From an uncultured Erysipelotrichaceae bacterium (lineage in GTDB: Bacteria; Bacillota_I; Bacilli_A; RF39; UBA660): DNA of 54,825 bases. The number at the start of each line of letters is the position of its first letter. Positions within the stretch are counted from its first letter, which is position 1. This document shows, in pieces, positions 8,954 through 23,881 of the stretch. Below the pieces are notes generated by a model. It was not told where the DNA came from. It did no database searches and was given only the letters and a program-made list of their open reading frames with translations. The stretch spans positions 1 to 54,825 of the forward strand of contig CADBDE010000015.1 of assembly GCA_902793375.1 (NCBI GenBank). Reading direction: 5' to 3'. Both the position numbers and the translations under genes were made by a program.

Positions 8954-10181
8954 TGAAATAGTTAAATTATTTAATAATGCAGAAAAGAACGTTAAAAAAG
9001 AATTTGATGAAATTGATAGATTATGTGATTTAAATAGTATGAAAGTACTTAATGCTTTTAAGAATAATAATGTATCTGAAATTCATTTTAATTCAACAAC
9101 TGGATATGGTTATAATGATATAGGACGTGAAGTAATAGAAAAAGTATTTAGTGAAGTACTAGGAGGAGAGGACTCACTTGTAAGAAGTCAGTTTATTTCA
9201 GGTTCACATGCTCTAACAGTTACTTTATTTGCACTATTAAGACCAGGAAATACACTTTTAAGTATTACTGGAAAACCATATGATACTTTAGATGAAGTTA
9301 TTGGAATAGTAGATAATAATAGTTCTTTAAAATCTTTTGGAATAAACTATGAACAAATAGATTTAATAGATAATGATTTTGACTATAAACAAATAGAAAA
9401 AATATTAAAAGAAAAGAAAATTAAAGTAATAGAGATACAAAGATCAAAAGGATATTCAACAAGAAAGAGTATTACAATAGATAAACTTGATAAAGTAATA
9501 GAGTTTATAAGAAAAATAGATAAAGAAGTAATAATTATGATAGATAATTGTTACTGTGAATTTGTTGAAGAAAAAAGTCCTTTAGAAATAGATAATTCTG
9601 CAGATATTATTGTTGGATCATTAATTAAAAATTTAGGTGGAGGACTTGCTCCAAATGGTGCTTATGTATCTGGTAAAAAAGAGCTTATTGATTTAGTAGC
9701 AGATAGACTTACTGTTCCAGGAGAAGGAAGAGAAGTTGGACCAACTCTTGGAATTAATAAAGCTATCTTGCAAGGACTATTTATGGCACCATCTGTTGTA
9801 TGTTCAAGTTTAAAAACAGCTGTTTTAACTAGTTGTGTTTTAGAAAGCCTTGGATATGATGTTGAACCAAAATATAATGATAAAAGAGCTGATATTGTTC
9901 AAAACATAATATTCCATGATAAAGAAAAACTAATTAAATATTGTCAAGGAATTCAAGAAGGAAGCCCAATTGATTCTAATGTCAAACCAATACCTTGGGA
10001 TATGCCTGGTTATACTGATCAAGTAATAATGGCAGCAGGAGCATTTACTCAAGGATCTTCAATTGAAATTTCATGTGATGGACCAATAAGAGAACCATAT
10101 ATTGCATATCAACAAGGTGGACTTACATATAACTATGGTAAAATTGCAGTAATGTATGGAGTAAAAAATATTGTTGAATAA
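8946..10181 (+). CDS. YnbB-like PLP enzyme (methionine gamma-lyase/aluminium resistance family)
   Basis: About 411 residues. It matches the Met_gamma_lyase (aluminium resistance protein, YnbB) family, a fold-type-I PLP enzyme group of uncertain physiological substrate. Visible marks: FNSTTGYGYNDIGRE, RSQFISGSHALT, GKPYDTLDEVIG, the PLP-lysine region SLIKNLGGGLAPNGAY, and GREVGPTLG. The start at 8946 has GGTGG 5 bases upstream and overlaps the SDR gene by 8 bases. Earlier in-frame ATG at 8934 lacks an SD. The assignment to family is strong, the reaction is not known. Confidence 0.88.
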   Translation: MNNEIVKLFNNAEKNVKKEFDEIDRLCDLNSMKVLNAFKNNNVSEIHFNSTTGYGYNDIGREVIEKVFSEVLGGEDSLVRSQFISGSHALTVTLFALLRPGNTLLSITGKPYDTLDEVIGIVDNNSSLKSFGINYEQIDLIDNDFDYKQIEKILKEKKIKVIEIQRSKGYSTRKSITIDKLDKVIEFIRKIDKEVIIMIDNCYCEFVEEKSPLEIDNSADIIVGSLIKNLGGGLAPNGAYVSGKKELIDLVADRLTVPGEGREVGPTLGINKAILQGLFMAPSVVCSSLKTAVLTSCVLESLGYDVEPKYNDKRADIVQNIIFHDKEKLIKYCQGIQEGSPIDSNVKPIPWDMPGYTDQVIMAAGAFTQGSSIEISCDGPIREPYIAYQQGGLTYNYGKIAVMYGVKNIVE

Positions 10182-10191
10182 AAATGTAAAG

Positions 10192-10220
10192 TAGATATTT
10201 AAAATATCTATTTTTTTTTG
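10192..10220 (+). terminator. terminator with conserved ATGTAAA flank
   Basis: TAGATAT and ATATCTA pair, followed by nine T. The preceding ATGTAAA and the TAGATA arm recur before two pilin genes (39503 and 54506). Confidence 0.8.
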
Positions 10221-10267
10221 TTCTATTATTTAATCTTTTTAATAAGATTTATTGAAAGAGGGATTAA

Positions 10268-10777
10268 ATGATAAATAAAGAACATTTGTGGTTTTTAACA
10301 CTATTCTCACTTATTCTAGTATTATGTGTATATTATGTAACTATGCCAAGTGACTTATTATTAAGTAATCAAACATTTGAAGAAAATAATAATAATAATA
10401 ATAATACTGAAGAAGTAAGTCTTGATGTTGAAGAAAGTGATATATTAACATCATTAAGACTTGATTTAGAAGAAGAAAGAGAAAACGAAAAAAAAGAATT
10501 ACAAACAATTCTTACTAATAGTGAATCTACAATTGATGAAAAAAATAATGCATATGAAAAAATAAGTCATATAAATAGTGTCTATGGTGAAGAAGAAAAA
10601 CTTGAAAAAGAAGTTAAGAATTGTTGTAATATAGATTCTTTTATTGAAGTAAATGATAATGAAATAAATGTAGTTGGGTTATCTAGTAATCATTCTAAAA
10701 GCCTTGCTAATGATATTATGAGAGCAATACAAGCAAAATATGATGAACAAGTAATTGTTACAGTTAATTTTAAATAA
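10268..10777 (+). CDS. SpoIIIAH-like protein
   Basis: A 169-residue protein with one N-terminal membrane segment (about 8-26), an Asn-rich linker coded by seven AAT codons, a charged coiled-coil region, and a C-terminal domain (ELQTILTNSESTIDEKNNAY, then CNIDSFIEVNDNEINVV). This is the SpoIIIAH family layout; SpoIIIAH joins mother cell and forespore in the sporulation feeding-tube complex with SpoIIQ. It stands alone here, not in a spoIIIA operon. Next downstream are gerE and gerM, which strengthens the call. Confidence 0.8.
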   Translation: MINKEHLWFLTLFSLILVLCVYYVTMPSDLLLSNQTFEENNNNNNNTEEVSLDVEESDILTSLRLDLEEERENEKKELQTILTNSESTIDEKNNAYEKISHINSVYGEEEKLEKEVKNCCNIDSFIEVNDNEINVVGLSSNHSKSLANDIMRAIQAKYDEQVIVTVNFK

Positions 10778-10785
10778 TGCCCTCA

Positions 10786-10811
10786 ACAATATATTTAATT
10801 CTCATAAAATA
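10786..10811 (+). promoter_or_regulatory. possible sigma-K-like promoter of gerE
   Basis: CATAAAATA at 10803-10811 fits the sigma-K -10 pattern CATAnnnTA, and an AC lies 15 bases upstream, one or two bases closer than usual. It falls inside the hairpin that ends spoIIIAH. gerE is a sigma-K gene in Bacillus, but a short motif in AT-rich DNA can occur by chance. Confidence 0.22.
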
Positions 10812-10826
10812 ATATGAGAATTTTTT
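10797..10826 (+). terminator. hairpin between spoIIIAH-like gene and gerE
   Basis: A perfect 10-bp stem AATTCTCATA / TATGAGAATT with a 6-base loop, then T. It ends only five bases before the gerE ribosome site, so gerE needs read-through or a promoter inside this stretch. Confidence 0.75.
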
Positions 10827-10845
10827 ATTTGAGAGGAGGATTATT

Positions 10846-11049
10846 ATTAAAAGTATATTAACTAATAGAGAAAAAGAAATATTTAATCTTCTTGTAAAAA
10901 ACATGACTACAAGAGAAATATCAGAAAAACTTTTAATAAGTGAAAAAACAGTTAGAAATCATATTTCAAATACTATGCAAAAACTTGGTGTAAAATCAAG
11001 AAGTAGTGCTGTAGTTGAATTAGTAAGATTAAAAGAATTATCTATATAA
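10846..11049 (+). CDS. gerE: GerE, LuxR-type sporulation regulator, with ATT start
   Basis: A 67-residue protein that is almost only a LuxR/GerE helix-turn-helix. Its block ISEKTVRNHISNTMQKLGV followed by KSRSSAVVELVRL is very close to Bacillus GerE, the last mother-cell regulator of coat genes. No ATG, GTG or TTG lies in frame before LTNREKEIFNLL; the strong ribosome site GAGAGGAGG (10831-10839) is followed six bases later by ATT AAA. ATT at 10846 is therefore the likely start; ATT at 10843 or 10840 are alternatives. Rare ATT starts are known from infC. gerM follows after 29 bases, echoing the gerE-gerM neighbourhood of Bacillus. Confidence 0.82.
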   Translation: MKSILTNREKEIFNLLVKNMTTREISEKLLISEKTVRNHISNTMQKLGVKSRSSAVVELVRLKELSI

Positions 11050-11078
11050 TAATGCATATACTTTATTAGGTGATTCTT

Positions 11079-11987
11079 ATGTTAAGAAAAAAAGCTATAA
11101 GAAAGATAGTAATAACTACTTTTGTCCTTTTTGTTGTGTTAACAATATATATGATTCCTACAAGAAAGAATAAGGATAAAAAAACATATCATTATATAGA
11201 TACCAAAGATATAAGTGTATATTTAGAAAATAATTATAATCAATTAACTAAAGTTGATTTCAAAATAACTAATTCGAAGATAGAAAATGTAATTGATGCA
11301 ATTATTAAAAAACTTACTATTTCTAATGATGCAACAATACCAAGAAAGTTTAAACAAGTTATTCCAAGCAATGTTGTACTAAATAAAGTAAAAGTTGAAG
11401 ATAAAATTGCCCATTTAAATTTTTCAAAAGATTTTTTAACTATAAAAAAAGAAGATATAGAGATGATTGTAGAATCAATTGCATATTCAATATTTGAACT
11501 TAAAGAAATAAATGGTGTATCTATATATGTTGATGATTATAATATTTCATCAAATTATAAAAATATACCAAGTATTATTACAAAAGAATATGGAATTAAT
11601 AAAAGGTATGAAATTAATAATTTTAATAATTTGTCAAAAGTAACAATAATGTATATAGATAATGAAGATGAAATTAATTATTATGTTCCAATAACAAAAT
11701 ATGTAAATGATGATAGGGAAAAAATAAAAATAATAATTGATGAATTATCTAGTAACTATGTATATGAGTCTAATCTAATTAGTCTATTAAATAAAAATAG
11801 TAAATTATTAAATTATGAAATTAAAAATGATAGTATAATATTAGACTTTAATAATAGTATTTTTCTTGATCAGGATGAAGTATTAGAAGAAGTTGTTTAT
11901 TCTGTTTTTGCAAATTATGATGTAGATAATGTAGTGTTTCAAACGGAAGGAAAAGAATTTTATAAAAAAAAGAATAAAAAAACTTGA
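11079..11987 (+). CDS. gerM: GerM-like spore germination/sporulation protein
   Basis: About 302 residues. An N-terminal membrane anchor (about 10-27) is followed by two copies of a GerMN-type domain. The first has IPSNVVLNKVKVEDKIAHLN then FELKEINGVSIYVDD; the second has YYVPITKYV...IDELSSNYVY...IILDFN...YDVDNVVFQTEG. The two-domain plan is that of Bacillus GerM, required for sporulation and germination. ATG at 11079 lies after TTAGGTG and is preferred over GTG at 11070. The gene sits directly behind gerE. Confidence 0.82.
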   Translation: MLRKKAIRKIVITTFVLFVVLTIYMIPTRKNKDKKTYHYIDTKDISVYLENNYNQLTKVDFKITNSKIENVIDAIIKKLTISNDATIPRKFKQVIPSNVVLNKVKVEDKIAHLNFSKDFLTIKKEDIEMIVESIAYSIFELKEINGVSIYVDDYNISSNYKNIPSIITKEYGINKRYEINNFNNLSKVTIMYIDNEDEINYYVPITKYVNDDREKIKIIIDELSSNYVYESNLISLLNKNSKLLNYEIKNDSIILDFNNSIFLDQDEVLEEVVYSVFANYDVDNVVFQTEGKEFYKKKNKKT

Positions 11988-12012
11988 ATAATTGGCCAAT
12001 TTGCTGTATAAT
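11984..12012 (+). promoter_or_regulatory. promoter of tRNA-Arg
   Basis: TTGAAT, 17 bases, TATAAT. The -35 overlaps the gerM stop codon. The tRNA starts 20 bases after the -10. Confidence 0.75.
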
Positions 12013-12031
12013 CCTATATGTACTTGGAAAT

Positions 12032-12108
<77 letters not shown>

Positions 12109-12119
12109 TTTATGAAAAG

Positions 12120-12143
12120 AAACTAACGAAAGTTAGTTTTTTT
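12120..12143 (+). terminator. terminator of tRNA-Arg
   Basis: AAACTAAC / GTTAGTTT with a GAAA tetraloop and a T run. Confidence 0.88.
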
Positions 12144-12188
12144 GTTTTTAAAAAGATCAATTTATAAATATATTCAAAATTAAAAAAC

Positions 12189-12216
12189 TTGAAAAAAACA
12201 TTATTCATGATATAAT
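12189..12216 (+). promoter_or_regulatory. promoter of the lipoprotein cluster
   Basis: TTGAAA, 16 bases, TATAAT. A palindrome begins two bases after the -10, covering the expected transcription start. Confidence 0.75.
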
Positions 12217-12217
12217 T

Positions 12218-12235
12218 AATGTAGTGTACTACATT
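12218..12235 (+). promoter_or_regulatory. palindromic operator candidate
   Basis: AATGTAGT and ACTACATT are perfect inverted 8-base arms separated by GT. The site covers the predicted +1 of the promoter at 12189, where a bound repressor would block transcription. The TGTAGT/ACTACA arms resemble sites of small winged-helix repressors of the GntR or BlaI/MecI kind, but no such regulator gene is in the window. Confidence 0.55.
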
Positions 12236-12249
12236 AAAAAGGAGGAAAA

Positions 12250-12702
12250 ATGAAAAGAGTTTTAAGTATTTTATTAATGGGAGTTTTAGTTGTTGGATTA
12301 ACAGGATGTGGAGGAAAAAAAGGAGATAGTAGATTTGATTATATTATTGATCAATTGAATAATGCAGTTGATGAAGTAGTTGAAAGAAATAACGATAAAA
12401 AGGTAACAATTTCTAGAATTGAAGATAGACTTACTCAAAATATTTCATCTGCTAGAATAATTGGTTGTGGAGAAAACGAATTTACTAAGGATGTTGATTT
12501 AACACAAACATCATACAGAATAGAGTTAAAAGGTTATGATGGAAAGATTTATTATAGTAATGGAGAATTAAATAAAGATTCAAAAGTTAATTATTGTTTA
12601 GTTTTTGCTACAAATGCAAGAGGATACTTAAATATTACTGTTAAATATGATGGTAATAAACCAGTATTTAGTATCCCTGAATTATTAAATGGAGATAAAT
12701 AG
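12250..12702 (+). CDS. lipoprotein of unknown function
   Basis: A 150-residue protein. The signal peptide ends in lipobox LTGC (Cys20), followed by a Gly/Lys spacer. The body contains a helical stretch with conserved-looking charged residues and a beta-rich domain with RIIGCGENEF and KVNYCLVFATNARGY, whose Cys residues could pair. AAGGAGG precedes ATG. It is first of a three-gene cluster with a small membrane protein and another lipoprotein, under the palindrome-bearing promoter. I do not recognise the family. Confidence 0.75.
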   Translation: MKRVLSILLMGVLVVGLTGCGGKKGDSRFDYIIDQLNNAVDEVVERNNDKKVTISRIEDRLTQNISSARIIGCGENEFTKDVDLTQTSYRIELKGYDGKIYYSNGELNKDSKVNYCLVFATNARGYLNITVKYDGNKPVFSIPELLNGDK

Positions 12703-12720
12703 AAAGGAGGATAAAATAAA

Positions 12721-12927
12721 ATGAAAGTTGGAGGTATAGTATTAATAGTAATAGGAGCATTGTTATTTATATTAGGATTAGCAGTAAATAGTACACCAGA
12801 TGCTCAATTATTATCTTTTATAGCAGGAAAAGGAACTAATCCAGGAACACCATTAATCATAATAGGTATATTAATGATTGCTGGAGGAATTGCTTTAGTA
12901 ATTCTTTCAGGAAAGAAGAAAAAATAG
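12721..12927 (+). CDS. small two-helix membrane protein
   Basis: Sixty-eight residues with two hydrophobic segments (about 5-22 and 43-63), a Gly/Pro-rich loop and a KKKK tail, which predicts the C-terminus in the cytoplasm. AAAGGAGG lies upstream and the preceding lipoprotein gene ends only 18 bases before. No known family recognised; presumably co-expressed with the lipoprotein. Confidence 0.7.
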   Translation: MKVGGIVLIVIGALLFILGLAVNSTPDAQLLSFIAGKGTNPGTPLIIIGILMIAGGIALVILSGKKKK

Positions 12928-12979
12928 TTTAATAATTTATTAATATTTATGATTTTTAAATATAATATTTGGTGATAAT

Positions 12980-13336
12980 ATGAAAAGTAGATTATTAAGC
13001 ATTTTATTATTATTATTTCTAATAACAGGATTAGTTGGATGTGGTAAAGAATCATATAGTGAAAATATGCTTAAAGTAAGAAAGTTTTCTCCATGGTATT
13101 TATCTAGTAAAATAAAAGCAGGAGAGATATATGATAAAGCCTTAAGAAATACTAATTGGGAAGAAAAGGACAATCAGGTTATTATTAGTGGAATTGATAA
13201 AATTACAAATAAAAAAATAGTTGTAATATATAAAGTAAAAGAATACAGTGTTGATGTGGAAAAAATGACTGTAGATGATGAAGAAAAAGATTACTTTTAT
13301 TGGTATAAATATATGACTAATTATATAATGGAATGA
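12980..13336 (+). CDS. lipoprotein of unknown function
   Basis: A 118-residue protein with signal peptide and lipobox LVGC (Cys21). The mature part has a short helical lead and a beta-strand section (NQVIISGIDKITNKKIVVIY). GGTGATAAT precedes ATG. Third gene of the cluster that begins at 12250, with no terminator between. Function unknown. Confidence 0.72.
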   Translation: MKSRLLSILLLLFLITGLVGCGKESYSENMLKVRKFSPWYLSSKIKAGEIYDKALRNTNWEEKDNQVIISGIDKITNKKIVVIYKVKEYSVDVEKMTVDDEEKDYFYWYKYMTNYIME

Positions 13337-16686: not shown

Positions 16687-17532
16687 ATGATGAAAAAAAT
16701 AATATATGGTATTATTTTTACGATACTTATTTGTTTAGTATCTATCTATATTTATAAAACACATAATGGTTATGTAATGGAAGATATTATTATTAAAAAC
16801 GACGATAATCAAAAGATATATGGACAATTATATAAACCAAGAACTAATAAGAAAATGCCTATTATTATATATTCACATGGATTAGGAGCAACTTATAGAG
16901 CTGGAATTGATTATGGTAAAAAGTTTACTGAATATGGAATAGCTACATTTACTTATGACTTTAGAGGAGGATCTTCTAGAAGTAAAAGTGAAGGAGAAAC
17001 TACTGAGATGTCATTTCTAACAGAAATGGATGATTTAGAATTAGTAATTGAAACAGTAAAAAATTGGAGTTTTGTAGATCCAAATAATATTATTCTTATG
17101 GGATCTAGTCAAGGTGGTGCAATATCTGCTTTAGTATCATCTAGTCATCCAAATGATATTAAAGGAACTATTCTTTTATATCCTGCCTTATCAATCCCAA
17201 CTGTAGTTCATAATTGGTATTCTAGTACTGAAGATATTCCAAATGAAGTAGAAATGACTGATAATATTACTGTTGGACCAAGATATTTTATTGATATTTG
17301 GAATATGGATGTTTATTCTATGATAGAACAAGATAATAAAAAAATATTAATTATTCAGGGAAGCGATGATAAATTGGTTTCTGTTGATCATTCTAAAAAA
17401 GTAAATGACATTTATCCAAATAGTAAACTTAAAATAATAAATGGTGCTGGTCATGGTTTTGATGGAAAAGACTTTGATGAAGCAGTAGAGTATATTCTTG
17501 ATTATTTTAAAGAATTAAATATTATAAAATAG
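16687..17532 (+). CDS. membrane-anchored alpha/beta hydrolase
   Basis: A 281-residue protein. One N-terminal hydrophobic helix (about 4-23) anchors an extracytoplasmic alpha/beta hydrolase of the S33/Hydrolase_4 type. The nucleophile elbow is GSSQGG, the acid lies in QGSDDKLV, the His in GAGHGF, and the oxyanion region is HGLGATYRAG. Probably an esterase or peptidase; substrate unknown. GGGAAGTG precedes the start. Confidence 0.85.
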   Translation: MMKKIIYGIIFTILICLVSIYIYKTHNGYVMEDIIIKNDDNQKIYGQLYKPRTNKKMPIIIYSHGLGATYRAGIDYGKKFTEYGIATFTYDFRGGSSRSKSEGETTEMSFLTEMDDLELVIETVKNWSFVDPNNIILMGSSQGGAISALVSSSHPNDIKGTILLYPALSIPTVVHNWYSSTEDIPNEVEMTDNITVGPRYFIDIWNMDVYSMIEQDNKKILIIQGSDDKLVSVDHSKKVNDIYPNSKLKIINGAGHGFDGKDFDEAVEYILDYFKELNIIK

Positions 17533-17560: not shown

Positions 17561-17584
17561 AAACACTCTTTTTGAGTGTTTTTT
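17561..17584 (+). terminator. Rho-independent terminator
   Basis: AAACACTC / GAGTGTTT around five T, then T. It isolates the hydrolase gene from the dlt-type operon. Confidence 0.85.
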
Positions 17585-17622
17585 ACAAGTTTATGATATA
17601 ATATCTATGTTTGAGGTATATT

Positions 17623-19131
17623 ATGAATAATGTTTTAGAGTATTTAGAAAAATCATGTAATAAGTATGCTAATAAAATAGCAGTTATTGAAGAAGATAAA
17701 TCAATTACTTATTCTAGTTTATTAGATAAAAGTAAAGTAGTTGGTTCTTTTTTTGCATCTCGAAAAATATTTAATAAACCAATAGTAATATTTATGGATA
17801 AAGGAATAGATACATTAATTTCTTTTTTTGGAGTAGTTTATGCATCTAACTTTTATACATTAATAAATCCTGAATTTCCAAGTGAAAGAATAAATCAAAT
17901 AGTAAATGTATTAAAACCTGAATATGTAATTACAAATGATATTTATTTGGATTATGCTAAAGAAAACTTTAATAATAGTAAAATATTTAATATAAAAGAT
18001 TTAATGAATAATAAAATAGATGATAAAAGTTTATTATTTGCTAATGAAAAACATATAAGTACTAATCCTTTATATATAAACTTTACTTCAGGTTCAACTG
18101 GAGTTCCAAAAGGAGTAGTAATATCACATAAATCTGTTATTGATTTTATAGATAATTTTACTAATATCTTTAGTTTTAATAAGGATGATATTATTGCTAA
18201 TCAAGCACCATTTGATTTTGATGTATCTGTTAAAGACATTTACTCATCTATTTGTGTTGGAGCAACGCTAGTAATTGTTCCTAAATCTTATTTTTCAAGC
18301 CCCGCAAAACTTCTAGACTATTTATGTTTAAATAATGTTACAACACTTACTTGGGCAGTATCAGCACTTTGCTTAATTACAACTTTTCATGGACTTGATT
18401 ATAAAGTTCCTGATAAAGTAAATAAAATATTATTTAGTGGAGAAGTAATGCCTATAAAACACTTGAATAAATGGATAGAAAAGTTACCTAATACAACTTT
18501 TGTTAATTTATATGGACCAACAGAAATAACATGTAATTGTACATATTATATAATTGATAATAAAAAAGAATATGAAAAAATCCCAATAGGAAAAGCTTTT
18601 CCAAATGAAAAAGTGTTTTTACTTGATAAAGATAATAAATTAATAATCGATACTAATAAAGTTGGAGAAATATGTGTTTCAGGTGATTGTGTTGCTCTTG
18701 GATATTTTAATAATAAAGAACAAACAGAAAAACATTTTATGCAAAATCCATTACAAAATGATTATTTAGAAACTATATATAGAACAGGAGATTTAGCATT
18801 TTATAATGAAGATAATGATTTAGTATTTAATGGAAGAGTAGATTTTCAAATAAAATATCAAGGACATAGAATAGAACTTGAGGAAATAGATAGAGCAATT
18901 ACAAATTTTGATGAAGTTGATAGAGCATGTTCAATATTTATAGAAGAAAAATCTAAACTATATTCATTTTATGTTGGAAATATTGATAAAAAAGAATTAC
19001 ATAGTAAATTAAAAGAAAAATTACCAGTATTTATGATTCCAACAAAACTTATTAAAATAGATGATTTTCCAATTACTAAGAATGGAAAAATAGATAGAAA
19101 AAAATTGTTAGAAATGGAGGAAGAAAAATGA
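17623..19131 (+). CDS. dltA: DltA-like amino acid:carrier protein ligase
   Basis: A 502-residue adenylation enzyme that activates an amino acid and loads it on the DltC carrier. Motifs: TSGSTGVPKG (P-loop), APFDFDVSVKD (amino-group-binding Asp kept), YGPTE, YRTGD, GRVDFQIKYQGHRIELEEID and a final NGKIDRKK lysine. The pocket motif reads LFSGEVMP, with Ser272 where D-alanine-specific DltA enzymes have a Cys (LFCGEV, Cys269 in Bacillus cereus). This could change substrate choice. A TATAAT lies at 17597, and TTGAGGT precedes ATG. It overlaps the next gene by ATGA. Confidence 0.88.
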   Translation: MNNVLEYLEKSCNKYANKIAVIEEDKSITYSSLLDKSKVVGSFFASRKIFNKPIVIFMDKGIDTLISFFGVVYASNFYTLINPEFPSERINQIVNVLKPEYVITNDIYLDYAKENFNNSKIFNIKDLMNNKIDDKSLLFANEKHISTNPLYINFTSGSTGVPKGVVISHKSVIDFIDNFTNIFSFNKDDIIANQAPFDFDVSVKDIYSSICVGATLVIVPKSYFSSPAKLLDYLCLNNVTTLTWAVSALCLITTFHGLDYKVPDKVNKILFSGEVMPIKHLNKWIEKLPNTTFVNLYGPTEITCNCTYYIIDNKKEYEKIPIGKAFPNEKVFLLDKDNKLIIDTNKVGEICVSGDCVALGYFNNKEQTEKHFMQNPLQNDYLETIYRTGDLAFYNEDNDLVFNGRVDFQIKYQGHRIELEEIDRAITNFDEVDRACSIFIEEKSKLYSFYVGNIDKKELHSKLKEKLPVFMIPTKLIKIDDFPITKNGKIDRKKLLEMEEEK

Positions 19132-20306
19132 TTGATTATAATAAAATAATTCAAAAATATGATACTCCATTATTTGTTTATGATATTTCAAAACTAGAAG
19201 AAAGAGTTAATTACTTAAAGTCAAAATTTAATAAAGAATATAATATGGTATATGCTGTAAAAGCTAATACTTTTGTTATTAAAGAAATAGATCCTTTAGT
19301 AGAAAGATTTGAAATATGTTCTCCTGGTGAGTTTGAAATATGTGAAAAATTAAAAATATCTCGTAATAAAATGGTAATATCTGGAGTAAATAAAGATAAA
19401 ATTTTTATAGAGAATTTGATTTCAAATTATGATGATATTTTAAAGTATACAATAGAGTCTTATAATCAATTCTTGTTACTTGATGAATTATCAAATAAGT
19501 TTAATAAAAAAATACACGTATTAATAAGGCTTTCTAGTGGTAATCAGTTTGGAGTATCAGAAGAAGATTTTATTAAAATAATAGGTGAGAATAAAAACTT
19601 AATTATTGATGGAATAGAGTATTTCTCAGGTACTCAAAAACACTCATTAAAGATAATAGAAAAAGAATTAGATCATTTAAAAGAATTTATTAATAATATA
19701 GAATTAAATTATAATATTAAAATAGAAGAAGTAGAGTATGGACCTGGTCTTCCAGTATTCTATTTTCAAGATAATGAATTTGATGAAGATACTTATTTAG
19801 ATGAACTTAATAAAATAATTGGAAAATTTAATGAAAAAGTGGTATCATTAGAAATTGGTAGAAGTATGGTTGCATCCTGTGGAAGTTATTTAACTAAGGT
19901 TGTTGATTTAAAAGAAAACAAAAATGGTAATTTTGTTATTCTTGATGGAGGAATAAATCATCTTGTTTATTATGGACAAACTATGGCAATGAAAATTCCA
20001 TTTTATGAAATAATACCTAAAAGAGAAGTAGAAGAAGTTACTTATAATTTATGTGGTTCTCTTTGTACTACAAATGATTATTTAGTAAAAAATATTAAAA
20101 TTAACAAACTTATGTTAAATGATGTGTTTGTTTTTAAAAACACTGGAGCATACTCATCTACTGAAGGAATAGCATTATTCTTAAGTAGAGATTTACCAAA
20201 AATAATACTAGTAAAAGATGAAAAAGAAGTAGTAGTTAGAGATAATAATAAAACTAGTTTAATCAATTATCCTAATTATGATATGGAGGAAGTATGGAAA
20301 GATTAA
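19128..20306 (+). CDS. fold-type-III PLP decarboxylase inside the dlt-type operon
   Basis: A 392-residue relative of diaminopimelate, ornithine and carboxynorspermidine decarboxylases. PLP lysine K45 lies in YAVKAN; phosphate-binding GPGLPV replaces the usual GGG; EIGRSMVASCG holds the E-x-GR motif; Cys313 in CGSLCTTND is in the position of the decarboxylase catalytic Cys; FKNTGAYSST closes the site. It overlaps dltA by four bases and dltC by thirteen, so it is translationally coupled to both. It might make the substrate of DltA or act on carrier-bound amino acid, as BtrK does on BtrI-bound glutamate in butirosin synthesis. The reaction here is unknown. Confidence 0.85.
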   Translation: MIDYNKIIQKYDTPLFVYDISKLEERVNYLKSKFNKEYNMVYAVKANTFVIKEIDPLVERFEICSPGEFEICEKLKISRNKMVISGVNKDKIFIENLISNYDDILKYTIESYNQFLLLDELSNKFNKKIHVLIRLSSGNQFGVSEEDFIKIIGENKNLIIDGIEYFSGTQKHSLKIIEKELDHLKEFINNIELNYNIKIEEVEYGPGLPVFYFQDNEFDEDTYLDELNKIIGKFNEKVVSLEIGRSMVASCGSYLTKVVDLKENKNGNFVILDGGINHLVYYGQTMAMKIPFYEIIPKREVEEVTYNLCGSLCTTNDYLVKNIKINKLMLNDVFVFKNTGAYSSTEGIALFLSRDLPKIILVKDEKEVVVRDNNKTSLINYPNYDMEEVWKD

Positions 20307-20521
20307 TTGAGATTTTGGAAGAATTAAATCCTGATGTAGATTACAAAACTTGTGAAGATTTAGTTGATGGAAGACATCTAGATTCATTAACTATTTTATC
20401 TTTAATATCAGAAATAGAAGATGAATTTGATGTTGAAATACCAACTGTTGAAATAATTCCTGCTAATTTTAATTCTGCTAAAAGTATAATGGCTTTAATA
20501 GAAAAGTTACAAGAGGAATAA
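20294..20521 (+). CDS. dltC: DltC-like acyl carrier protein
   Basis: A 75-residue carrier protein. Ser31 in HLDSLTIL is the expected 4'-phosphopantetheine site. The fold is four short acidic helices as in DltC. ATG overlaps the end of the decarboxylase, with GGAGG 5 bases upstream. It should receive the aminoacyl group from DltA and present it to DltB. Confidence 0.88.
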   Translation: MERLIEILEELNPDVDYKTCEDLVDGRHLDSLTILSLISEIEDEFDVEIPTVEIIPANFNSAKSIMALIEKLQEE

Positions 20522-20522
20522 T

Positions 20523-22103
20523 TTGTCATTCTTTGATTTAGGTTTTGCCTTTTTATTTGTACCAATAGTAGTATTAATATTTATTATTGTACCTAAAAAG
20601 GTAAAACCATTAGTTTTATTACTTGCTAGTTATATATTATTCTTTATAGCTAGCAAATTTTTAATTATATTTTTACTATTATCGACATTATCAATTTTTA
20701 TAGCAGGAAAAAAATTAAATAAAATTGATGAATTAAAAACAAAAGCACTTGAAAAAAAAGATATAGATAAAAAAGAAATAAAAGAGAAATTTAAAAAGAA
20801 AAAAAGAAGAATTGTTCTTCTTGTTATATTATTTAATATTATATTCTTATTTATATTTAAATATTTGAAGTTTTTTACTATTAATATAAATTCATTATTA
20901 GATATTTTTAAGATAGATTATAATTTTACAATAATCAAATTAGTAGCTCCAATTGGAATATCTTACTATACATTGAAAGCTATATCATATGTAGTAGATG
21001 TTTATAATGGGAAAATTGAAGCAGATAATAATTTTGTTAGATTAGCTCTTTATTTATCTTTTTTTCCACAAATACTAGAAGGACCAATATCAAAATATGA
21101 TGAAGTAGCAGATAATATTTATAATGCAACAAAGGTAACATATCACAATTTTTGTTTTGGTTATCAAAGAATACTTTTTGGATTCTTTAAAAAACTAATT
21201 ATTGTTGATAGATTAAATATTTTAGTTAAACAAGTATTTAATAACTATACTAGTTTTAATGGATTATCGATATTTATAGGAATAGTATCATATACAATGC
21301 TTTTATACATGGAATTTTCTGGAACAATGGATGTTGTAATTGGAACTGGAGAAATATTTGGAATAACTATTCCAGAAAACTTTAGACAACCATTTTTCTC
21401 AAAGAATATTACAGACTTTTGGTCTAGATGGCATATATCTTTAGGACATTTCTTTAAAGATTATGTGTTCTATCCAGTATCTTTATCAAAACCACTAAAG
21501 AAAATAACAACTAGTTTAAGAAAGAAATTTAGTGTTCGTACTAGTTCATTAGTTGCTGGAGGAATAGCGCTTTTTTGTGTTTGGTTTTTAAATGGACTAT
21601 GGCATGGAGCAGGATATACTTATTTGTTCTTTGGAATGTATCACTTTTTACTTATTTTTATGGGAAATATATTTGAACCAATAATACAAAGTATTTGTAC
21701 TAGATTAAAAATAAGTAGAACAAGTAAAAAATATTACTCTTTACAAATTATTAAAACATCAATTTTAGTGTTTATTGGAGAAATGTTCTTTAGAGCAGAT
21801 TCAGTTTCACAAGGATTTAGTATGCTTGGTAGAATGTTTACAAGATTATTTGTATTATCAAAAAATGAATTTTATAGATTTGGTTTAGATTTTTATGATG
21901 TAATACTAATTATAGTTGGATTATTAATTGTATTATTTATAGGTATCTTAAAAGAAAAAAATATTAGTGTTAGAGAAGAAATAGCTAAGAAACATGTAGT
22001 TGTTAGATGGTTAATTTATTATTTATTAATTTTATCAATTATTATTTTAGGAGCATATGGAAATAGCTATGCACCAGTTGATCCTATATATGCGGATTTT
22101 TAG
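20523..22103 (+). CDS. dltB: DltB-like MBOAT acyltransferase
   Basis: A 526-residue integral membrane O-acyltransferase with about 11 hydrophobic segments. The MBOAT signature is present: FWSRWHISLGHFFKDYVFYP and GLWHGAGYTY, with His361 the conserved catalytic His. The start is TTG one base after the dltC stop, with GAGGA inside the end of dltC. A Lys-rich loop lies at about residues 62-98. It would move the aminoacyl group from DltC across the membrane. It is longer than typical Bacillus DltB (about 395 residues), partly through this loop and the C-terminal extension. Confidence 0.85.
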   Translation: MSFFDLGFAFLFVPIVVLIFIIVPKKVKPLVLLLASYILFFIASKFLIIFLLLSTLSIFIAGKKLNKIDELKTKALEKKDIDKKEIKEKFKKKKRRIVLLVILFNIIFLFIFKYLKFFTININSLLDIFKIDYNFTIIKLVAPIGISYYTLKAISYVVDVYNGKIEADNNFVRLALYLSFFPQILEGPISKYDEVADNIYNATKVTYHNFCFGYQRILFGFFKKLIIVDRLNILVKQVFNNYTSFNGLSIFIGIVSYTMLLYMEFSGTMDVVIGTGEIFGITIPENFRQPFFSKNITDFWSRWHISLGHFFKDYVFYPVSLSKPLKKITTSLRKKFSVRTSSLVAGGIALFCVWFLNGLWHGAGYTYLFFGMYHFLLIFMGNIFEPIIQSICTRLKISRTSKKYYSLQIIKTSILVFIGEMFFRADSVSQGFSMLGRMFTRLFVLSKNEFYRFGLDFYDVILIIVGLLIVLFIGILKEKNISVREEIAKKHVVVRWLIYYLLILSIIILGAYGNSYAPVDPIYADF

Positions 22104-22112
22104 GAGGGGATT

Positions 22113-23042
22113 ATGAAGAATTTTATAAAAAGTATTATTTTTTGTATTATCCTTGTAGTTCTCTTAACTGTTTCAATATATTTTTTAATTCCTCAAAATA
22201 ATATTAGAAAATATAATTTTTTAAATATTTTAGATTATGAAATATTAGAAGAAGAAGATAATACAATTGATGTTTTGTTTGTAGGAGATAGTTTAGTATA
22301 TTCATCTGTTTCTCCAATGGAGATATGGAACAATTTTGGATTTACTTCATTTGATTGTTCAACTCCTGCTCAACTTACAGAAACAGCACATGAATATATT
22401 AAAATTGCTATTGAAAGACAACATCCTAAGGTAATTTTTTTAGAAGCAAATATATTGTTTAGAGATCCTGCTAAAAGAACTGATGAAAGAAAAATAAAAG
22501 ACTTATATGATAGATATTCTATTTTTGATAAGTATCATGATAATTGGAAAGATTATTTATCATATGGTAAGAGAATTAATCCTACTAAAGGTTATTATTA
22601 CATAAATAGAACGAATAAAGCTAAAAAGAATAATTATATGGAAGATAAAAAAGTAAGAGAAAAAATTCCAGATATCAATATTGAATATTTTAATAAAATA
22701 ATTGATTTATGTAATTCAAATGATATTCAATTAATTTTGTTTGGTGTTCCTAGTATGAAGAGTTGGACTTATGCAAAAGATCAAAAAGCTAATGAAATAG
22801 CAAATGAATATAATTTAACTTTTATTGATTTTAATGTTAACAATATGCTTGATATTGATTGGGAAAATGAAACAAAAGATGAAGGAAGTCATTTGAATTA
22901 TAAAGGTGCTAAGAAGGTATCTCAATATCTTGGTAATTATTTGTTTGAAAATAATTTAGTAGAAAATCATAAAGAAGATCCTTCATATGATGATTGGAAT
23001 AAAGCATATAATAAGTATGAAAGATTAATAGAATTTAATTAA
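22113..23042 (+). CDS. dltD: DltD-like SGNH protein
   Basis: A 309-residue protein with one N-terminal membrane helix (about 7-25) and an extracellular SGNH domain: nucleophile Ser60 in VGDSLVYSS, and DEGSHLNYKG with His260 at the end. DltD completes the transfer of acyl groups to teichoic acid. It is shorter than classical DltD (about 390-420 residues), so it may be a related family member. AGGAGGGGA precedes ATG. Last gene of the operon. Confidence 0.78.
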   Translation: MKNFIKSIIFCIILVVLLTVSIYFLIPQNNIRKYNFLNILDYEILEEEDNTIDVLFVGDSLVYSSVSPMEIWNNFGFTSFDCSTPAQLTETAHEYIKIAIERQHPKVIFLEANILFRDPAKRTDERKIKDLYDRYSIFDKYHDNWKDYLSYGKRINPTKGYYYINRTNKAKKNNYMEDKKVREKIPDINIEYFNKIIDLCNSNDIQLILFGVPSMKSWTYAKDQKANEIANEYNLTFIDFNVNNMLDIDWENETKDEGSHLNYKGAKKVSQYLGNYLFENNLVENHKEDPSYDDWNKAYNKYERLIEFN

Positions 23043-23066
23043 GGAATAATTATTATTCCTTTTTTA
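23041..23066 (+). terminator. terminator of the dlt-type operon
   Basis: AAGGAATAA / TTATTCCTT with loop TTA and T run; the stop codon of the DltD-like gene is in the stem. Confidence 0.85.
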
Positions 23067-23134
23067 TTTATAAAAATAGTTGTTTAAACATTCTATATGT
23101 AATTAAATGAATAAGATAATATGAAGGAGGTATT

Positions 23135-23881
23135 ATGACAAATAAAGAATTTGTAGATAAATTAATAAATATTGTTAATAATTATAAAACTGTATATGCT
23201 TATGGAACTTTTGGACAAAAAATAACAAAATCTATTATTAATCAAAAATCAAAACAATATCCAAATTGGTATACACAAACAAGAAAAAATAATTTATTAA
23301 ATTTAGTTGGTAAAAACTATTTTGGATTTGATTGTGTTGGATTAATCAAAGGAGTTCTTTGGGGATGGAATGGAAGTAATACTGTTAATGGTGGAGCAAA
23401 ATATGAATCTAATGGAGTACCTGATGTAAATGCAAATACTATGATTAATAAATGTAATAATATTTCAACTAATTTTAATAATATAACTATGGGAGAATTA
23501 TTATGGATGAATGGACATGTTGGAATATATTATAAAAATGGTCAAGTTATTGAATGCTCACCAGCATTTAATAATAAGGTACAAATAACGCAATTATCAC
23601 AAAGAGCATGGAAAAAACATGGATTTCTTCCATGGATAACTTATGATAATAATCAATTTTTACCACCAAGAGGATATTTTAAAAAAGGAGATAGTGGTAA
23701 AAATGTTGAAAAGATTTGTGACTTTTTATCCGGTTTTGTAAAAGGAGATTACTTTGGTGATTATGCTGTATCTTGTACAAAAGTTTTTCAAAAACAAAAT
23801 GGATTAGAGCCAGATGGAAATATTGGACCATTAACACTTGCTAAAATGAAAGAAAAAGGTTTTGTTGAATATAATAATTAA
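23135..23881 (+). CDS. NlpC/P60-type peptidoglycan hydrolase with binding domain, no signal peptide
   Basis: A 248-residue protein. The N-terminal half is an NlpC/P60-like cysteine peptidase: Cys67 in FDCVGLIKG, His128 in GHVGIYY, and a third polar site in VIECSP. The C-terminal part (about 185-245) is a peptidoglycan-binding domain of the PG_binding_1 type (KKGDSGKNVEKICDFL, LEPDGNIGPLTLAKM). There is no signal peptide: the protein begins MTNKEFVDKLINIV. Signal-less lysins of this layout are typical of phage endolysins, but no phage genes are near. AAGGAGG precedes ATG. Confidence 0.85.
   Translation: MTNKEFVDKLINIVNNYKTVYAYGTFGQKITKSIINQKSKQYPNWYTQTRKNNLLNLVGKNYFGFDCVGLIKGVLWGWNGSNTVNGGAKYESNGVPDVNANTMINKCNNISTNFNNITMGELLWMNGHVGIYYKNGQVIECSPAFNNKVQITQLSQRAWKKHGFLPWITYDNNQFLPPRGYFKKGDSGKNVEKICDFLSGFVKGDYFGDYAVSCTKVFQKQNGLEPDGNIGPLTLAKMKEKGFVEYNN

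Follow-up and report, generated by a model that had tools for sequence, protein, structure and literature searches.

In the envelope-acylation pathways that pair an MBOAT acyltransferase with an SGNH protein, PatA forms an acyl-tyrosine in its C-terminal FXYXXF motif, Dlt has an FXYXXF motif on DltX, and the pathways other than Dlt operate without a carrier protein (PMC12148441). In natural-product pathways, decarboxylases dependent on pyridoxal phosphate (PLP) are known to act on amino acids bound to a carrier: BtrK decarboxylates carrier-bound glutamate to gamma-aminobutyrate (GABA; PMC7857480), VinO decarboxylates 3-methylaspartate bound to VinL (PMC11284099), and a bolN deletion put an end to bolagladin production with no rescue by beta-alanine, which is consistent with on-carrier decarboxylation (PMC7756342). 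Here we describe a five-gene locus with features of both, located in a stretch of 54,825 nucleotides (the window) of contig CADBDE010000015.1 from an uncultured Erysipelotrichaceae bacterium (assembly GCA_902793375.1). The locus encodes a stand-alone adenylation-domain ligase, a fold-III PLP decarboxylase (Dec), a carrier protein, an MBOAT acyltransferase and a membrane-anchored SGNH protein.

We hold, with somewhat better than even confidence, that this is an envelope-acylation operon whose acyl donor arises by decarboxylation on the carrier, where aspartate or glutamate would be loaded through the distal carboxyl, converted to a beta-alanyl or GABA-yl group and passed on to an envelope polymer. 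The chances seem evenly balanced for the wider proposition of an undescribed and widespread Bacillota system that replaces Dlt, in which on-carrier decarboxylation of an acidic amino acid, beta-alanyl or GABA-yl esters on an envelope polymer, an MBOAT that depends on a carrier and includes its own acyl-tyrosine shuttle, and a module joined to more than one MBOAT-SGNH lineage would all come together. A literature search found no paper describing the cassette, most subscription journals being outside its coverage.

Loci for comparison were taken from a scan of a genome collection, which returned 251 related places, 80 of them kept and fetched; the record names of these 80 include Bacilli, Lachnospiraceae, Oscillospiraceae, Eubacterium, Acetobacterium, Traorella and Faecalicoccus. 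The order ligase-Dec-carrier-MBOAT-SGNH is found in 73 of the 80 Bacillota loci, while five of the remaining seven end at contig ends and two (L177 and L179) have an additional MBOAT-SGNH pair before the carrier. The same order was found in 10 of 146 relatives; in nine relatives Dec is 58-70% identical and the complete five-gene order is present in each, and in a sample of the phylum Dec is present in 15 of 392 genomes. Such recurrence, spanning many Bacillota of the gut and of the environment, is far beyond chance. An earlier interpretation of this DNA from its letters alone (the sequence-only reading) had placed the decarboxylase between ligase and carrier with overlaps of 4 and 13 bases, and the open reading frame coordinates bear out these overlaps as well as the positions and order of the genes. 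It had also suggested looking for the five-gene order in other genomes, with absence of the decarboxylase from the locus in all relatives as the outcome that would speak against a link, and the counts above show the order to recur with the decarboxylase in place.

The ligase scores 307.8 bits against the DltA model TIGR01734 (cut-off 559.85) and 315 bits against the amino-acid adenylation-domain model TIGR01733, slightly below its cut-off of 317.4 (both NCBIfam). Six pocket residues (D200, V201, K204, S272, C304 and N305) show no variation among the cassette ligases (81 of 81) and are retained in rearranged operons; from an alignment with gramicidin synthase domains we take them to be GrsA positions 235, 236, 239, 301, 330 and 331. 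An invariant lysine at position 239 is what one would expect, from the alignment, if the substrate has a second carboxylate; a lysine at this position presumably reads as glutamate in the nonribosomal peptide synthetase code, for which a literature search on the glutamate specificity code gave nothing usable. The closest ligases from loci without Dec differ in the pocket (SMSYLALDIK in L213, SMTYMALDIK in L207) and have no amine-binding aspartate, which supports the view that the pocket tracks the presence of Dec.

The pocket of DltA itself consists of D197, L198, a methionine and C269 (PMC11253843), and this D-alanine type is not what the cassette ligases have: leucine is replaced by Val201, methionine by Lys204 and cysteine by Ser272, all invariant. 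The sequence-only reading was therefore right that the pocket is altered but incomplete, as it mentioned neither Lys204 nor Val201. Its explanation of the cysteine-to-serine change as relaxed selection for D-alanine is not the main one to be drawn, since Ser272 falls at the position of VinN Ser299, for which, together with Arg331, a role in recognising the alpha-carboxyl of an Asp-type substrate has been put forward (PMC7756342). Features of the VinN type that are found in the ligase comprise the aspartate for the amine (D200), a bulky residue at position 236 (V201) and the serine at position 301 (S272); a valine at position 236 also occurs in engineered adenylation domains for beta-amino acids (PMC11253843).

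Dec is a protein of the ornithine/diaminopimelate (DAP)/arginine decarboxylase type that retains the C-terminal domain of this group (Pfam). Its PLP lysine Lys45 (YAVKAN) and catalytic-type Cys313 (GSLCTTND), which the sequence-only reading had pointed out along with Ser272 of the ligase (LFSGEVMP), are all present and conserved in family alignments. With the single sequence, phmmer gives BtrK as the best PDB match, and with a ten-member Dec profile SbnH, DAP decarboxylases and BtrK rank close together. The predicted model (predicted local distance difference test, pLDDT, 89.0) likewise has BtrK as its top Foldseek match, and VIA-align superposes the two with Z 37.8 and a root-mean-square deviation of 2.7 over 377 residues. 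In the tree, Dec forms a clade (100/100) apart from LysA, with weakly supported placements of BtrK and SbnH (65/19). At the residue level, the CES/CET of LysA is CTxND in aligned Dec copies (CTPED in BtrK, CTPKD in SbnH), the arginine of the LysA specificity helix is replaced, HIGSQ becomes YFSGTQ and the phosphate-loop GGG becomes GPG or GTG in most copies, and about 16 residues preceding QFG, on the active-site side, are deleted.

The rival explanation that survives best, unlikely as we consider it, is that decarboxylation comes first: Dec would make beta-alanine or GABA from free aspartate or glutamate and the ligase would load the finished omega-amino acid, with the same end product. This would suit a decarboxylase-fold enzyme encoded beside a ligase, and IdnL3 of the incednine pathway does act on its amino acid in free form, ahead of loading (PMC11284099), but the invariant Lys204 is odd if the sole carboxylate of the substrate is the one activated, BtrK as the closest structural match works on a carrier (PMC7857480), and Dec has lost the LysA residues for a small free substrate together with the stretch beside the active site. 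A lysyl system, in which Dec would be a DAP decarboxylase that supplies lysine, or would act on carrier-bound DAP, with lysyl groups ending up on the polymer, is improbable. The lysA model TIGR01048 is indeed the best NCBIfam model for Dec, and no second LysA match was found in the window's genome, part of which is masked; yet the score of 163.3 bits is far under the cut-off of 297.9, the CES/CET and helix arginine are missing, a separate and much stronger LysA-type match exists in 20 of 30 cassette genomes, no DAP epimerase was found in the partly masked genome of the window, and the pocket lysine would repel a lysyl side chain. The identification of Dec as LysA itself was rejected on the absent signatures, the separate clade and these separate matches. 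We give just as little credence to another PLP reaction, by which Dec would racemise or epimerise a carrier-bound amino acid and a non-decarboxylated residue would be attached: fold-III enzymes include racemases and Dec is remodelled around PLP (the phosphate loop and a His-to-Phe change), but it keeps Cys313 and the decarboxylase C-terminal domain, and its nearest relatives, by sequence and by Foldseek, are all decarboxylases.

The MBOAT protein reaches 146.6 bits against the DltB model TIGR04091, below the cut-off of 375 (NCBIfam), and its H361 (NGLWHG) is invariant in the family alignment. Nearly all complete copies end in P[ILM]YAx[FY] with an invariant tyrosine; the first residue of the motif is proline, not phenylalanine, in the main cassettes, and the motif reads FVYMQF or FIYAEF in rearranged operons. 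As judged from the encoded proteins, the cassette combines a carrier protein with an acyl-tyrosine motif fused to the MBOAT. The labels DltA, DltB and DltD of the sequence-only reading denote similarity; for DltB the likeness is in the core, with the family score below the cut-off and a DltX-like motif fused to the protein. For the name DltD there is no support from family models: the SGNH protein matches none in Pfam or NCBIfam. Its predicted model (pLDDT 90.7) shows the SGNH fold and a helix at the N-terminus, with Ser60, Asp256 and His260 conserved; the matches listed for it include PatB (Z 12.5-12.6 over 166-176 residues) and SGNH esterases (with Z up to 14.1) but no DltD structures. It is better described as a generic, PatB-like SGNH protein. 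An acceptor that is a lipid or small molecule, with no wall polymer involved, has very little to recommend it; adenylation domain, carrier and decarboxylase do occur in the vicenistatin and bolagladin pathways (PMC11284099, PMC7756342), but what characterises envelope polymer acylation is just such a pair, an MBOAT with an acyl-tyrosine motif and an SGNH protein anchored in the membrane (PMC12148441), and the recurrent neighbours of the cassette are phosphopantetheinyl transferases, regulators and unrelated genes, with no evident biosynthetic cluster.

Rearrangements are informative about which of the genes belong together. In L210, L211 and L235 the MBOAT-SGNH pair precedes ligase-Dec-carrier with the trio still adjacent, and L239 and L240 are likewise rearranged. 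The ligase tree unites all Dec-linked ligases, those of L210 and L211 included, in a single clade (97/98), whereas in the MBOAT tree the main cassettes share a clade with the Dec-less systems L213 and L208 to which L210 and L211 do not belong. Ligase, Dec and carrier behave as a charging module that has been paired with at least two MBOAT lineages, and because the trio keeps its own order throughout, its members are likely to act together. The L170 locus has four SGNH genes in tandem (9028-13017); these extra copies, and the two MBOAT-SGNH pairs of L177 and L179, suggest several acceptors. Among loci without Dec, L213 (3446-7862, genome G182) holds a ligase-carrier-MBOAT-SGNH operon in which serine replaces the amine-binding aspartate of the ligase code, perhaps, to judge from that code, an MBOAT system that depends on a carrier and handles a non-amino acyl group. 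In L209 (5923-10327, genome G139) a ligase-carrier-MBOAT operon has a different, unlabelled protein of 411 residues in between and an MBOAT C-terminus reading FIYFSF.

No DltA over the cut-off was found in any of the 30 cassette genomes searched, nor in the window's genome; in the control for this search, 2 of 14 genomes pass. The cassette may therefore take the place of Dlt. Ordinary D-alanylation, with a ligase that loads D-alanine and Dec as a bystander PLP gene of unrelated role, is the least credible explanation, since beyond a general resemblance to dltABC and the alanine-racemase fold of Dec it is confronted with a ligase that differs at the DltA contact positions Val201, Lys204 and Ser272 (PMC11253843) and scores far under the DltA cut-off, and with a Dec whose place between ligase and carrier is kept in distant genera and survives rearrangement. 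What the sequence-only reading took for a dlt operon with an embedded decarboxylase is instead a separate family, and the idea of a gene inserted into a canonical dlt operon was rejected on scores, pocket and co-distribution. Genes for LtaS-like sulfatase-fold proteins, considered as a clue to the acceptor, are uninformative because most relatives (127 of 146) match PF00884.

An enzyme to arm the carrier is often encoded nearby, with a phosphopantetheinyl transferase gene next to the cassette in over 20 loci. The SGNH gene and an AcpS-like gene (PF01648, 55.8 bits) overlap at the 3′ end of the former in at least 20 loci, and an AcpS-like gene adjoins the cassette in all nine nearest relatives. 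For instance, Faecalicoccus pleomorphus (L178) has the order ligase-Dec-carrier-MBOAT-SGNH-AcpS-regulator-kinase, with AcpS over its NCBIfam cut-off, and in Traorella (L174) an AusB-like phosphopantetheinyl transferase, a regulator and a kinase lie upstream of the cassette. VanRS-like response regulator and histidine kinase genes adjoin the cassette at L174:2104-4372, L178:6928-9217, L152:1907-4244 and L175:1742-4064.

From the gene content and order, the conservation, folds and motifs, and the pocket-Dec link, we infer a substrate, an on-carrier chemistry and an acceptor as follows. A phosphopantetheinyl transferase would arm the carrier on Ser31, which is conserved in family alignments. The ligase would then adenylate a dicarboxylic amino acid, most likely L-aspartate or L-glutamate, on its distal carboxyl and transfer it to the carrier; Asp200 would hold the amine, and Lys204 and Ser272 the free alpha-carboxylate. 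PLP decarboxylases remove the carboxyl from the amine-bearing carbon; if this happens on the carrier, the thioester must therefore be on another carboxyl, and the substrate needs two. Dec would thus leave beta-alanyl- or GABA-S-carrier, and aspartate (giving beta-alanyl) and glutamate (giving GABA-yl) are indistinguishable from these sequence data. The MBOAT would move the acyl group across the membrane onto the tyrosine of its own PIYADF motif, and the SGNH protein would take it by Ser60 and esterify an extracellular polymer, probably teichoic-acid-like, which would gain positive charge as with D-alanylation. A literature search for unusual amino acids on teichoic acid gave nothing usable.

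Several observations weigh against this scheme. The mapping of the pocket to GrsA positions rests on sequence alignment; VinN Lys330/Arg331 are not seen in the ligase, which has C304/N305 there, nor is the beta13-beta14 loop of VinN, shorter by one residue, the loop of the ligase being apparently full length. The Dec-pocket link is confined to one ligase clade and hence perhaps reflects one evolutionary event. Several LysA/DAP decarboxylase structures tie with BtrK (Z 37.6 vs 37.8, VIA-align), so the fold alone cannot separate the two for Dec. Finally, no PF01648 or other phosphopantetheinyl transferase match was found in the window's genome, and the AcpS gene is missing from window positions 23043-23135, its place in the nine nearest relatives; absences in this genome are weak evidence because one contig has at least 18 kb of N (L241, C4:70000-89900, approximately 18 kb, where a false open frame of 24159 codons arises). 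The core of the sequence-only reading, namely a substrate other than D-alanine, decarboxylation on or before the carrier and an amine-bearing acyl group destined for an envelope polymer, is supported by the comparative evidence of the module, the pocket, the BtrK-like Dec and the linked phosphopantetheinyl transferase.

The features of the locus are collected in the table below. The ligase could alternatively start at a TTG at 17611, upstream of its ATG at 17623. Ligase and Dec overlap by four bases (ATGA), Dec and carrier by 13, and the TTG start of the MBOAT gene lies one base past the end of the carrier gene. An alpha/beta-hydrolase gene (16687-17532) lies 5′ of the operon and a gene for an NlpC/P60 and peptidoglycan-binding protein (23135-23881) 3′ of it; in the nine nearest relatives the cassette has neither of them as a neighbour.

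Table. Genes and signals of the five-gene locus, in window positions.
Feature	Position	Strand	Remarks
Ligase, stand-alone adenylation domain, DltA-like, 502 residues	17623..19131	+	ATG start
Dec, fold-III (alanine-racemase fold) PLP decarboxylase, BtrK-like, 392 residues	19128..20306	+	
Carrier protein, 75 residues, phosphopantetheine site Ser31 (LDSL)	20294..20521	+	PP-binding Pfam over cut-off
MBOAT acyltransferase, DltB-like core with C-terminal extension of ~100 residues ending in PIYADF	20523..22103	+	TTG start
Acyl-tyrosine motif PIYADF and stop codon, MBOAT C-terminus	22083..22103	+	
Membrane-anchored SGNH protein, 309 residues, one N-terminal helix, Ser60 in GDS, Asp256/His260	22113..23042	+	Predicted model
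Terminator-like hairpin and T-run, between upstream hydrolase gene and operon	17563..17584	+	By eye; consensus scan did not flag
Terminator-like AT-rich hairpin and T-run, directly 3′ of SGNH gene	23043..23065	+	By eye; consensus scan did not flag

If the proposal is correct, it would (i) mean that teichoic-acid-type polymers of many gut Bacillota bear an omega-amino acid and not D-alanine, (ii) change the view of surface charge, cationic-peptide resistance and host recognition in these bacteria, (iii) join on-carrier decarboxylation, so far a matter of natural-product pathways, with MBOAT-SGNH envelope acylation and (iv) provide an example of an MBOAT that depends on a carrier and has its acyl-tyrosine motif built in.

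Among the known systems, LysA shares a fold family with Dec, which differs in its separate clade, its lack of the substrate-recognition residues and its score far under the TIGR01048 cut-off. The exosortase-A-associated pair (TIGR03098/TIGR03099) resembles the cassette in pairing an AMP-forming ligase with a PLP decarboxylase, and was rejected as an identification at scores of 195 against a cut-off of 592 and 140 against 478, respectively. The butirosin pair BtrK/BtrI is closer: the fold, the best match to a solved structure, the CTxxD loop, a GTQ in most copies and a stand-alone carrier are shared, but BtrK is 22-25% identical to Dec and butirosin carries the product as an antibiotic side chain, not as an envelope ester. 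The loading enzyme of that pathway is reportedly not a DltA-like ligase. VinN-VinL-VinO of vicenistatin and BolO-BolC-BolN of bolagladin offer what is proposed for the cassette, distal-carboxyl loading of an Asp-type amino acid on a free carrier followed by PLP decarboxylation, with a serine of the ligase at the VinN Ser299 position; these systems have no MBOAT or SGNH protein and feed polyketide or peptide assembly. PatA-PatB, which O-acetylates peptidoglycan, shares an MBOAT with a fused C-terminal motif of the FXYXXF type and a PatB-like SGNH protein, but PatA uses acetyl-CoA whereas the cassette encodes its own ligase and carrier. Finally, DltXABCD has the same stand-alone adenylation-domain ligase, small carrier, DltB-like MBOAT core, membrane SGNH partner and acyl-tyrosine motif, and the cassette departs from it in the additional decarboxylase between ligase and carrier, the Lys204/Ser272 pocket, an SGNH protein without a DltD family match and a motif fused to the MBOAT, which in Dlt is found on the separate DltX.

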